From Alphaproteobacteria bacterium (GTDB lineage: Bacteria > Pseudomonadota > Alphaproteobacteria > CAAHEQ01 > UBA3637), in assembly GCA_017533325.1 (NCBI GenBank), contig JAFXIF010000027.1, positions 1 to 33,093 on the forward strand: DNA of 33,093 nucleotides, given 5' to 3'. The position numbers were made by a program, and so were the translations under genes. The first letter of the stretch is position 1. Each line of letters opens with the position of its first letter. The notes below the pieces were generated by a model. That model did no database searches, had not been told where the DNA came from, and was given only the letters and a program-made list of their open reading frames with translations. Below, in pieces: positions 21,219 to 24,700 of the stretch.

Positions 21219-21785
21219 ATGACTGTTTTACTCGGACTTGTTATTGTTTTAGTTGTTTTAGGTTTATACACTATTTCAATTTATAATTCTTTGGTTACCG
21301 GCAAAATGCAAACAAAGGAAGCATGGAGCACTATTGAAACTCAACTAAAACGCCGATATGATTTAATTCCGAATTTAATCGAAACGGTTAAATCTTATGC
21401 CAAACATGAATCTAAAACTCTTGAAAACGTTATCAATGCCCGAAATATGGCTATGAGTGTTAAAGATTCATCCGTTCAAAAAGAACAATATGAAAATATG
21501 CTTACCGGAACACTTAAATCTTTATTTGCCTTATCCGAAAATTATCCGGATTTAAAAGCCAATCAAAACTTTATGCAAATGCAACAAGATTTAAAAGATA
21601 CAGAAGATAAAATTCAAGCAACACGTCAATTTTATAACACAACAGTTATGGGATATAATACTGCTATTGCCGTTTTCCCAAAAAATGTGATTGCAAAATG
21701 GTTTAAATTTGAACCAGAAAGATTCTTCGAGTTAGAAGAAGGCGAAAAAGATGCTGTTCGCCAAGCTCCAAAAGTTCAATTTTAA
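21219..21785 (+). CDS. lemA: LemA-family membrane protein
   Basis: 188 residues with one N-terminal membrane segment (about 2-20, VLLGLVIVLVVLGLYTI) and a long helical domain. The family signature EAWSTIETQLKRRYDLIPNL is followed by VINARN. FYNTTVMGYNTAIAVFPKNV and WFKFEPERFFELEE are also typical. Its exact role is unknown. In many bacteria lemA lies next to htpX-type proteases, as here, suggesting membrane or envelope quality control. The ribosome site AAGGAG is strong. First of four plus-strand genes. Confidence 0.93.
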   Translation: MTVLLGLVIVLVVLGLYTISIYNSLVTGKMQTKEAWSTIETQLKRRYDLIPNLIETVKSYAKHESKTLENVINARNMAMSVKDSSVQKEQYENMLTGTLKSLFALSENYPDLKANQNFMQMQQDLKDTEDKIQATRQFYNTTVMGYNTAIAVFPKNVIAKWFKFEPERFFELEEGEKDAVRQAPKVQF

Positions 21786-21795
21786 GGAAAGTTAA

Positions 21796-22755
21796 ATGAG
21801 AAAAAACGTTTACGATCACATTCACGCAAATAACAGGAAAACCTTATTTTTGGTTGCCATGTTCCCTGTTTCTTTATTGGCAACATTTTTTGTTGTTTTA
21901 TATGCTTTACTCTATATAAATGCACAAACGCCTTTAGAAGAGGCATTCGTATTAGATACAACGCTTTATTATCTGAAACATTTTGCGTGGATTGTGATTG
22001 TAACGGGATTAACTTGGATGGGCATTTCTTGGCTTATCGGCGATAAAATGATGTTAGGCTTTGCAGGCGCAACCGAGCTTAAGAAAAATGATGAAAATAT
22101 CAATATTTATAATCTTGTTGAAAACACTGCTTTAGCTGCTGGCCTTCCTCGCCCTAAAATATTTATTATTGAAGATGACTCTTTAAATGCTTTTGCAACT
22201 GGTCGAGATCCAAAATCTGCTTCTGTTGCTCTTACAACAGGCATTATTAAAAAATTAGAACCTCTTGAATTACAAGGCGTTATTGCCCATGAAATGGCTC
22301 ATATTGGAAACCGAGATATTCGTTTAAATATGATGCTTATTTCCGGTGTTAGCATTTTTGGTTTTTTAGCAGAAATATTATTCCGCGCTGGAACTGCTAC
22401 TACTAGTGGAGAAAATAAATCACCACTTCCTCTTGTTTTATTTGCAACGGGAATAACCTTTTTTATTTTCAATTTATTAATTGCCCCACTTCTTCAAATG
22501 GCTGTTTCAAGAACAAGAGAATATGCCGCAGATGCAACTGCCGCTTATATCACAAGACATCCACAAGCATTGGCCGCTGCCTTAACTAAAATTAAAAAAG
22601 ATGCGCGCGTTGAAGCACTAGACAGTTCAAAAAAAATGGCTATTGCTTGCATTCATACCCCTCTTACAGAAGAAGCTGTTTCTCTTTTTTCAACTCACCC
22701 TCCTGTTGAAGACCGCATTAAAAGACTTCAACAAATGGCTGGCACAGGTTTTTAA
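21796..22755 (+). CDS. htpX: HtpX-like M48 membrane metalloprotease
   Basis: Zinc endopeptidase of the inner membrane, involved in membrane-protein quality control. 319 residues with two N-terminal membrane segments (about 17-40 and 62-82), a conserved RPKIFIIEDDSLNAFATG block, the zinc site HEMAH at 165-169, two further hydrophobic segments, the third zinc ligand E242 (SRTREYAADATAAY) and the C-terminal STHPPVEDRIKRLQQM. It starts ten bases after lemA, with AAGGAAAG as ribosome site. It is immediately followed by a catalytically dead paralogue. Confidence 0.93.
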   Translation: MRKNVYDHIHANNRKTLFLVAMFPVSLLATFFVVLYALLYINAQTPLEEAFVLDTTLYYLKHFAWIVIVTGLTWMGISWLIGDKMMLGFAGATELKKNDENINIYNLVENTALAAGLPRPKIFIIEDDSLNAFATGRDPKSASVALTTGIIKKLEPLELQGVIAHEMAHIGNRDIRLNMMLISGVSIFGFLAEILFRAGTATTSGENKSPLPLVLFATGITFFIFNLLIAPLLQMAVSRTREYAADATAAYITRHPQALAAALTKIKKDARVEALDSSKKMAIACIHTPLTEEAVSLFSTHPPVEDRIKRLQQMAGTGF

Positions 22756-22758
22756 TCT

Positions 22759-23748
22759 ATGTTAAATCTTTTTCGGTTCAAAATCTTTTATGCAATTGTT
22801 TTATTTTTATGTTGCTTAGCCATATTTTTATATGGAGTTTCTTGGGTAACTGTTTTATTTACTAATATCCATCGTTATGCCTGGACAAACATTCAATTAA
22901 TTCATTATAAAACCTTCATCATTTTACTTATTCCGATACTTATATGGGGTTGTTGGTGGTCTTTATATGTTTTAAAAAATCAAAATGAAATCGCAATTCA
23001 TAAAACAAAAGCTTCATTATTAGAGGCTTCAAGTCATGATGAAATTTACAAAAAAATTTCTCTTTTATCTTCAATGCTTAATATTCCCATGCCAAAACTC
23101 TATCAAGTTTCAGACATGGGAGTTAATTCTCTTTTAATTTCAAATTCAAAAAACGAATCTGCTTTAATTTTTTCTAGCTATATAATCAATTCAAATAATG
23201 TTAATCATATTATAAATATGGCAACATTCCATCTTGCATCCATTCAAACAAGAGCAAATGCTTTTAATACGTTTGTTATCGCTCTTACTTCTTGTTTTTC
23301 GCATTGGTTTGAAATAATTATGTTAAGATTTTTTAAAACACGAGAACTGCCATTTCATTTAGAAAGATTTCACCCCCTGCTTTATCCTATTCGTTTTGTT
23401 TTATTGCCATTAATCTCTATTTTAAGCATTTTTGCTTTATATGATCGTTTAATCGCACCCATTATCACTTTCTTATGCATTAAAGATTTAACTCTAAAAA
23501 AAGATAAAAAAGCCATTCTTTTACTTAAAACACCTCAAAAATATATCAACACACTTTATCTGGTTCAAGATAATCCAAGAGTATCTGCATTTGAAAATGG
23601 AGCCATGTTTATTTCTTGTTTTCAAGACCCAAGAGATCATTTAGTATTTTTAAAATTGATTGATACTCACCCTTCAATTGAAAAAAGAATTCAAAAAATT
23701 AAAAAGGAATTTAAAGCTTACTTTATTTATGAAAAGGAGGAAGAATGA
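22759..23748 (+). CDS. HtpX paralogue lacking the catalytic site (pseudoprotease)
   Basis: 329 residues, intact frame, three bases after htpX. The topology and landmarks of HtpX are kept: two N-terminal membrane helices (about 10-34, 53-70), LSSMLNIPMPKLYQVSDMGV against HtpX LAAGLPRPKIFIIEDDSL, a middle hydrophobic region and the C-terminal DTHPSIEKRIQKIKKE. In alignment the HEMAH zinc site becomes FHLAS (157-161), and the third ligand region (REYAAD) becomes KDLTLKKD without a suitable glutamate. It cannot be a normal zinc protease. It may regulate or scaffold HtpX or LemA. Many Ile, Asn and Lys codons suggest faster drift than its neighbours. Confidence 0.82.
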   Translation: MLNLFRFKIFYAIVLFLCCLAIFLYGVSWVTVLFTNIHRYAWTNIQLIHYKTFIILLIPILIWGCWWSLYVLKNQNEIAIHKTKASLLEASSHDEIYKKISLLSSMLNIPMPKLYQVSDMGVNSLLISNSKNESALIFSSYIINSNNVNHIINMATFHLASIQTRANAFNTFVIALTSCFSHWFEIIMLRFFKTRELPFHLERFHPLLYPIRFVLLPLISILSIFALYDRLIAPIITFLCIKDLTLKKDKKAILLLKTPQKYINTLYLVQDNPRVSAFENGAMFISCFQDPRDHLVFLKLIDTHPSIEKRIQKIKKEFKAYFIYEKEEE

Positions 23749-24251
23749 CCGAAGAAAAAACACAAGTTACTATTGAGGAAAATCCACGCCCGAGTTGGGA
23801 CGAATATTTTATGGATGTGATGCATGCTTTATCCAAAAGAGCAACATGCAATCGTGGAAAAACCGCCTGTTTACTGGTTAAAGACAATCATATTATTTCA
23901 TCCGGTTATGTTGGTTCTCCTTCAGGGTTACCTCATTGCGACGAAGTCGGCCATCTGATGAAAAAAGTTGTTAATGAAGATGGATCTATTTCCGAGCATT
24001 GTGTTCGCACCATTCATGCCGAACAAAATGCCATTTGCCAAGCCGCCAGAAGAGGCGTTTCCATTGAAGGAGCAACTCTTTATTGCAAACTTGCACCTTG
24101 TCGGACCTGCGCTATGCTTTTAATTTCTTGCGGTATTAAACGTATCGTTGCCGAATATAAATATCATAAAGGAGCCGAATCTGAAGAAATGTTTAAAGCA
24201 GTTGGTATTGAAATAAAATATATCAATGATGAAGTGTTGAAATATAAATAA
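23745..24251 (+). CDS. Deoxycytidylate (dCMP) deaminase family protein
   Basis: 168 residues, zinc-dependent cytidine/deoxycytidylate deaminase fold. The motif HAEQNAI supplies the histidine ligand and the proton-shuttling glutamate. PCRTCAMLLISCGI supplies two cysteine ligands. CNRGKTACLLVKDNHIISSG and SPSGLPHCDEVGHLM match ComEB-type dCMP deaminases, which make dUMP for thymidylate synthesis. It starts at ATG 23745, overlapping the previous stop (ATGA). A ribosome site AAGGAGG lies just upstream, inside the paralogue's last codons. The functional link with lemA-htpX is not obvious. Confidence 0.9.
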   Translation: MTEEKTQVTIEENPRPSWDEYFMDVMHALSKRATCNRGKTACLLVKDNHIISSGYVGSPSGLPHCDEVGHLMKKVVNEDGSISEHCVRTIHAEQNAICQAARRGVSIEGATLYCKLAPCRTCAMLLISCGIKRIVAEYKYHKGAESEEMFKAVGIEIKYINDEVLKYK

Positions 24252-24260
24252 CACACAAAA

Positions 24261-24290
24261 AAACACTCTGGTTGCTAACCAGAGTGTTTT
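24261..24290. terminator. Bidirectional terminator, deaminase and nucleotidyltransferase genes
   Basis: AAACACTCTGGTT (24261-24273), loop GCT, AACCAGAGTGTTT (24277-24289), T-run on each strand. The minus-strand stop codon TAG (24277-24275) lies at the hairpin tip, so the 3' arm of the minus-strand gene is coding. Confidence 0.9.
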
Positions 24291-24700
24291 TTTAAACTTT
24301 CACGGATGGCAGTTGTTGAACGAACAGGCAACAATTCTTTGGGGATTCTGTTACTCACAACATATTTTATTCCCAAATTTTCAACGAACGTTCTTTTTTC
24401 AAGACTGTCCCCATCTGTATTTACAAAAAAAATGTCAGGTTTTATGTCTTTAAGTTCTTTCTCAAAATCAAGCTTTCCAGAACCTTGAGCCACAAATGCA
24501 TGATGCACAAATTTTAATGAAGAAACCATATAAAGGCGTTCTTTTTCATTATATAGTGTTTCTCTATTTTTTAAATCTCGAATGGTTTTATCAGACCCAA
24601 TTGAAACATATAAATCACCCAATTGAGCAGCCTCTTCAAAAAAACGAATATGGCCGCTATGTAACACATCAAAACAGCCTGAAACAAAAACTTTTGGCAT
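24275..24700 (-). CDS. Cytidylyltransferase-like nucleotidyltransferase
   Basis: 141 residues, HxGH nucleotidyltransferase superfamily (TagD/RfaE C-domain/PCT-like). FVSGCFDVLHSGHIRFF has the HSGH motif at 14-17. YVSIGSDKTIRDLKNRE and the C-terminal RSTTAIRESL (family STT-type motif) are also present. It probably transfers CMP or AMP to a phosphorylated sugar or polyol. The substrate is not decidable. Start ATG 24700 is preferred because it has AGAGGTAAG upstream. A longer frame would run into the preceding pilin-like gene. Last gene of the argS-side minus-strand cluster. Confidence 0.85.
   Translation of the reverse strand: MPKVFVSGCFDVLHSGHIRFFEEAAQLGDLYVSIGSDKTIRDLKNRETLYNEKERLYMVSSLKFVHHAFVAQGSGKLDFEKELKDIKPDIFFVNTDGDSLEKRTFVENLGIKYVVSNRIPKELLPVRSTTAIRESLKKHSG

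Follow-up and report, generated by a model that had tools for sequence, protein, structure and literature searches.

The third gene of the lemA–htpX cluster in the 33,093-nucleotide stretch of DNA analyzed here (the window), which comes from a gut alphaproteobacterium, encodes a paralogue of HtpX from which all of the zinc ligands of the HExxH and Glu helices are absent. Judged by its sequence, the product is well supported as a protein that is catalytically dead and yet selected. We propose that the gene is a tandem duplicate of htpX turned pseudoprotease, and that its product would tune HtpX by pairing in the membrane with HtpX or with HtpX substrates, a proposal that we believe has an even chance of being correct.

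The cluster is on the plus strand and opens with lemA (21219–21785; 188 amino acids; Pfam LemA, E = 1.3e-56), which is followed by an active htpX (21796–22755; 319 amino acids; Pfam Peptidase_M48, E = 8.1e-34) whose product carries the motifs HEMAH, SRTREYAAD, and THPPVEDR. Next come the gene for the paralogue (22759–23748; 329 amino acids), whose open reading frame, coordinates, and start were confirmed, a gene for a ComEB-like dCMP/cytidine deaminase (23745–24251; 168 amino acids), and, at the end of the cluster, a terminator-like hairpin (24256–24294, not assigned to a strand). The ATG of the paralogue gene lies 3 nt past the htpX stop codon, and no Shine–Dalgarno sequence was found upstream of it. 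At the other end, its TGA overlaps the ATG of the deaminase gene by 4 nt, and the Shine–Dalgarno sequence of the deaminase gene (AAGGAGG, 23734–23740) falls within the last codons of the paralogue. Given a gap of only 3 nt that is devoid of a Shine–Dalgarno sequence, the arrangement suggests that translation of the paralogue is coupled to that of htpX. The same junctions, including the 3-nt gap, are found in a second species, which is represented by contig JAGCKR010000061 of the yak-rectum metagenome-assembled genome RGIG9879.

The paralogue gene is also in the same frame as htpX, with only TAA TCT preceding its ATG (window positions 22753–22761; TAA TCC in the yak-rectum genome). Readthrough of the htpX stop codon would yield an HtpX–paralogue fusion, although a shared frame is expected by chance one time in three and may be meaningless.

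The first-pass annotation held that the third gene aligns with HtpX along its length, and three comparisons bear this out. BLASTP aligned the paralogue with the neighboring HtpX at 22% identity over 236 amino acids (E = 5e-14). The NCBIfam HtpX model NF003425 matched residues 43–316 (E = 9.5e-15), its cut-off being uninformative here because the active neighbor also falls below it (235.9 versus 355). Lastly, a profile alignment, which had been recommended as a check, was carried out with hhalign against a profile of 14 HtpX proteins and gave a probability of 99.7% (E = 3.2e-25) over 297 columns. Homology to HtpX over the full length, far beyond chance, is thus confirmed. With Pfam Peptidase_M48 (PF01435) the paralogue scored 13.1 bits, which is under the gathering cut-off of 20.3, as compared to 117.5 for the active HtpX; a low score is to be expected, since much of that model rests on the catalytic motifs, if these are lost. 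The HtpX-like membrane layout that had also been claimed is broadly kept, in that TM1, TM2, and TM4 are clear in the hydropathy profile, but TM3 is weak.

To compare individual residues, both paralogues were aligned with 42 active HtpX proteins. The two His residues and the Glu of the HEMAH zinc site (residues 165–169 of the HtpX of the window, 22288–22302), that is, H165, E166, and H169, are present in all 42, as is the third-ligand Glu, E242. The same four columns hold F157, H158, S161, and T245 (23491–23493) in the paralogue and F, H, E, and A in its yak-rectum relative, the HExxH columns reading FHLAS (residues 157–161, 23227–23241) and FHLSE, respectively. Both losses, of HEMAH to FHLAS and of the third ligand, had been called from the sequence at the outset, and both hold. 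An alternative alignment restoring HExxH, which had been named as grounds against a dead protease, was looked for; BLASTP, MAFFT, and hhalign all gave the same register, none restored the site, and a rescue by another register was rejected. Moreover, neither HExxH nor HE..H occurs anywhere in the open reading frame of the paralogue.

Other residues of the active site are retained in both paralogues: Asn123 (23125–23127), the counterpart of the Asn in the HtpX motif NAFA, which is found in 42/42 active HtpX proteins; Asp249 (23503–23505), the Asp of the ExxxD motif; and His304, Pro305, and Arg310. These are M48 motif residues that are invariant in 8/8 of the diverse sequences of the alignment used for structure prediction. 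The last three belong to the motif HPx4R, the so-called active-site plug, which a study of BepA described as conserved family-wide and in which the His is a fourth zinc ligand that caps the zinc and the Arg sits in the active site (PMC7950410). The motif is intact in both copies (HPSIEKR, residues 304–310, 23668–23688, in the paralogue and HPNIENR in the relative), in agreement with the C-terminal HtpX-like block THPSIEKRI noted in the first reading. Not all conserved positions were spared, however: the two paralogues both retain just 13 of the 50 columns that are near-invariant in HtpX. With His158 and His304 shared by the two copies, the paralogue might still be an enzyme that uses another metal site or mechanism. 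We regard this as exceedingly improbable, however, in view of the absence of HExxH, the absence of a third acidic ligand from the equivalent helix, which is nearly unconstrained, and the lack of conservation of the HLERFH stretch in the relative.

The paralogue has been freed at the metal site, and its C-terminus is held as tightly as in HtpX. Of the residues in the former HExxH helix, 13/26 are identical between the two paralogues, and of those in the former Glu helix, 10/24, as compared to 23/26 (88%) in the TM4 equivalent (residues 213–238, 23395–23472), 33/38 in residues 263–300, and 16/18 in the plug block, the C-terminal block of residues 263–318 (23545–23712) being strongly conserved at 87–89%. 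The contrast between the former zinc helices (23/50, 46%) and TM4 plus residues 263–318 (72/82, 88%) gave a Fisher p of 6e-7, for regions that were picked after the alignment had been viewed and for a single species pair. In the active HtpX of the same species pair, conservation peaks in the HExxH helix (22/22), and the plug block is identical at 16/18. For TM4 and the plug of the paralogue, dN/dS is about 0.06, and the third-ligand helix is near-neutral (dN 0.47, dS 0.59).

The retention of Asn123, His304, and Arg310 would also suit a decoy or substrate trap, in which the dead site binds and shields HtpX substrates and so lowers the output of HtpX, with HtpX itself left unbound. In BepA, the inactive mutant E137Q exerts a dominant-negative effect in a wild-type background (PMC7950410). 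Nonetheless, the cleft is lined by the HExxH helix, one of the least conserved parts of the paralogue, and a decoy is in our judgment improbable.

For the one available species pair, the window and the yak-rectum genome, dN of the paralogue is 0.26 and dS is 1.08, which gives a dN/dS of 0.25 (bootstrap 0.16–0.32), a comparison among relatives that the first-pass annotation had called for. At similar dS, the ratio for the same pair is near 0.08 for htpX (dN 0.09) and 0.04–0.06 for lemA and the deaminase gene, and the rate of evolution of the paralogue is roughly three times that of HtpX. The two paralogue genes contain no stop or frameshift, their only indel being a six-residue difference near the N-terminus; in selection-free simulations stops appeared in every run, even at 0.2 changes per site. 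Since dN/dS is 0.25 and stops are lacking at a dS of about 1, the paralogue is maintained by purifying selection in this species pair, and a pseudogene or neutral decay is rejected. The original view that an intact frame marks something other than a plain pseudogene therefore stands, the more so as the copy in the second species is intact. A relic that is slowly decaying after a tandem duplication would account for the faster evolution of the paralogue than of its neighbors (dN 0.26 versus 0.09 for htpX), its low GC content, its near-neutral third-ligand helix, and its absence from congeners. Set against a dN/dS that is well under 1 overall and near 0.06 for TM4 plus plug, and against a frame with neither stop nor frameshift at a dS of about 1, such a relic is very unlikely.

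An AlphaFold2 model of the paralogue, built from eight sequences, is of modest confidence, with a mean pLDDT of 66, core blocks at 75–88 and a poor stretch at residues 273–301, and the order of its elements is that of an HtpX control model (pLDDT 75). The top structural matches of the model were all M48/M56 proteases: Ste24p (Z 13.1; 236 residues aligned, rmsd 7.2), ZMPSTE24 (Z 11–12.2), BepA (Z 11.1), and the HtpX domain of Vibrio parahaemolyticus (Z 10.7; 95 residues aligned, rmsd 2.8). Because the alignment included HtpX sequences, which pull the model toward the HtpX fold, the model adds weakly to the sequence evidence for retention of the fold; the paralogue likely folds as an M48 protein. 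A search of PDB sequences with the paralogue returned no match.

Of the 43 genomes that represented the family, which was the only one sampled for its order, two contain the paralogue: the genome of the window and that from yak rectum. The copy in the latter is 65–67% identical, is intact, and lies in the same gene order; as this is an independent assembly, an assembly artifact was rejected. A disrupted copy in relatives, which had been named as a sign of neutral decay, was found in none of them, the gene being either intact or absent. In six genomes of the same genus (G001, G002, G005, G006, G008, and G009), htpX directly adjoins the deaminase gene with no room between them, and the paralogue gene is therefore a lineage-specific insertion. 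Its 3' end bears the Shine–Dalgarno sequence of the deaminase gene, much like the tail of htpX in one of the six, G002 (AAAAGGAGAATAAATGACTGAAGAA in the paralogue versus AAAAGGAGGAAGAATGACCGAAGAA). An insertion inside a conserved htpX–deaminase junction with a similar 3' end suits a tandem duplication of htpX, by which the paralogue probably arose. Two other genomes of the genus, G004 and G007 (92% and 77% complete), gave no htpX match; in these, htpX is perhaps dispensable or absent from the assembly.

The stem branch of the paralogue in the tree is saturated, at about 10 changes per column, and the placement of the paralogue is therefore uninformative and no proof of duplication. Neither a position as sister to the htpX of its own lineage (p-AU 0.11) nor one inside the genus (p-AU 0.19) was rejected, and the paralogue may instead have been acquired horizontally. 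Its amino-acid composition is distinct and lysine-rich and fails the composition test of the tree. Meanwhile, its GC content of 0.274 (0.19 at third codon positions) is the lowest among the long open reading frames of the window, most of which lie at 0.32–0.41. The very long stem, the lysine-rich, low-GC character (0.27 versus 0.37 for htpX), and the lack of evident acceleration in the active HtpX of the same species could all be explained by an independent membrane protein that has abandoned proteolysis and whose present task, be it the binding or chaperoning of membrane proteins or something else, involves no contact with HtpX. This explanation is possible but rather doubtful, as the paralogue has been kept right behind htpX, at a distance of 3 nt, in both species and retains the plug and other non-metal residues of the M48 active site.

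Searches with a profile (A1) of 385 genomes of the class and 398 of the phylum at E ≤ 1e-18 revealed no further member of the paralogue group. In a 100-genome sample of the phylum, inspection by eye found, among the matches listed, no other second HtpX-type match adjoining an htpX. Scans of genome contigs returned only the yak-rectum relative and a distant archaeal HtpX, and viral contigs contained no match to the paralogue; as a source of additional HtpX sequences for folding, viral contigs yielded only three distant ones. Unrelated dead HtpX proteins may exist elsewhere.

We also observed an independent tandem duplication of htpX in another genus of the family (genome G027, locus L098, 2178–3182 and 3155–4144). 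All zinc ligands are kept in both copies (HEMAH and HEIAH), but the branch of the second is long, at 1.26 changes per column, and this copy has the variants SYHPP and NAFTSG. In other genomes of the phylum (G454, G438, G460, G480, and others), many of the HtpX-type matches listed lie in frames of approximately 620–700 amino acids, which suggests M48B-like domains fused to long extensions.

How, then, might a zinc-less paralogue serve the cell? Of the original pseudoprotease reading, the part that describes a dead, intact, and selected protein is upheld by the loss of motifs in two species, the dN/dS of 0.25, and the conserved placement. The functional part, in which the paralogue would regulate HtpX, chaperone, or present substrates to it, is plausible on indirect grounds, namely, the adjacency of the paralogue to htpX, the 3-nt gap without a Shine–Dalgarno sequence, and the survival of TM4 and of HPx4R. 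Most likely it would act on HtpX or on HtpX substrates, and we infer that it may interact with HtpX or LemA. On the reading of a pseudoprotease that tunes HtpX, the paralogue would adopt the fold of an M48 membrane protein with no catalytic zinc bound, would be synthesized by translation coupled to that of htpX, and would be inserted beside HtpX. The conserved surface of TM4 and the C-terminal plug would then be the contact through which it pairs, within the membrane, with active HtpX or the substrates of HtpX, and it would tune HtpX either as an adaptor that holds substrates or as a restraining partner, dominant-negative or plugging in trans. Counting against a partner of HtpX are the lack of the paralogue in six congeners that have htpX and the possibility that the C-terminal block is conserved for folding alone.

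Pseudoproteases in general are well established, and what is new here is the setting of a known phenomenon, the HtpX operon of a bacterium. The open-access literature, which mostly leaves out subscription papers, yielded no report linking HtpX to a pseudoprotease or to a catalytically inactive M48 homologue. The paralogue resembles HtpX (M48B) in full-length homology, the N-terminal TM pair, TM4, the NAFA Asn, the ExxxD Asp, and the HPx4R plug, and differs from it in lacking HExxH and the third Glu, in being only about 22% identical, and in its Pfam M48 score below the cut-off. Inactive iRhom2 restrains ADAM17 (PMC11248996), and iRhom1 and iRhom2 are, like the paralogue, membrane pseudoproteases of protease ancestry with a membrane metalloprotease as target, the target being a proposal for the paralogue; the fold and the partner are different, and the interaction, demonstrated for the iRhoms, is inferred here (PMC11248996, PMC13277793). 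The chloroplast FtsHi pseudoproteases, which form a complex with FtsH12, are likewise selected paralogues of a metalloprotease in which HEXXH is mutated or missing, but they have an AAA+ ATPase domain and a role in protein import, whereas the HtpX paralogue has no ATPase (PMC8197885). A complex with the active paralogue is known for FtsHi and is proposed for the HtpX paralogue. Finally, Escherichia coli BepA shares the HPx4R plug with the paralogue, and its dead form interferes with the wild type; however, BepA is periplasmic with a TPR domain, and E137Q is a laboratory mutant rather than a natural paralogue (PMC7950410).

Among the genomes examined, the paralogue occurs in just two species, which limits the general weight of the finding. 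A more specific possibility, which we advance tentatively, is a two-part bacterial membrane metalloprotease, that is, a heteromer of HtpX and a dedicated zinc-less paralogue whose TM4 and HPx4R block act in trans to restrain HtpX or to hand over substrates. To our knowledge, the control of HtpX and its recognition of substrates are poorly known. If it exists, the heteromer would be a prokaryotic M48 counterpart of the iRhom–ADAM17 arrangement. A paralogue without metal ligands in which the plug and TM4 are strongly selected sets the regulatory parts of M48 apart from the catalytic ones, and together with HtpX it offers a concrete pair with which to test trans-regulation of a bacterial membrane protease.
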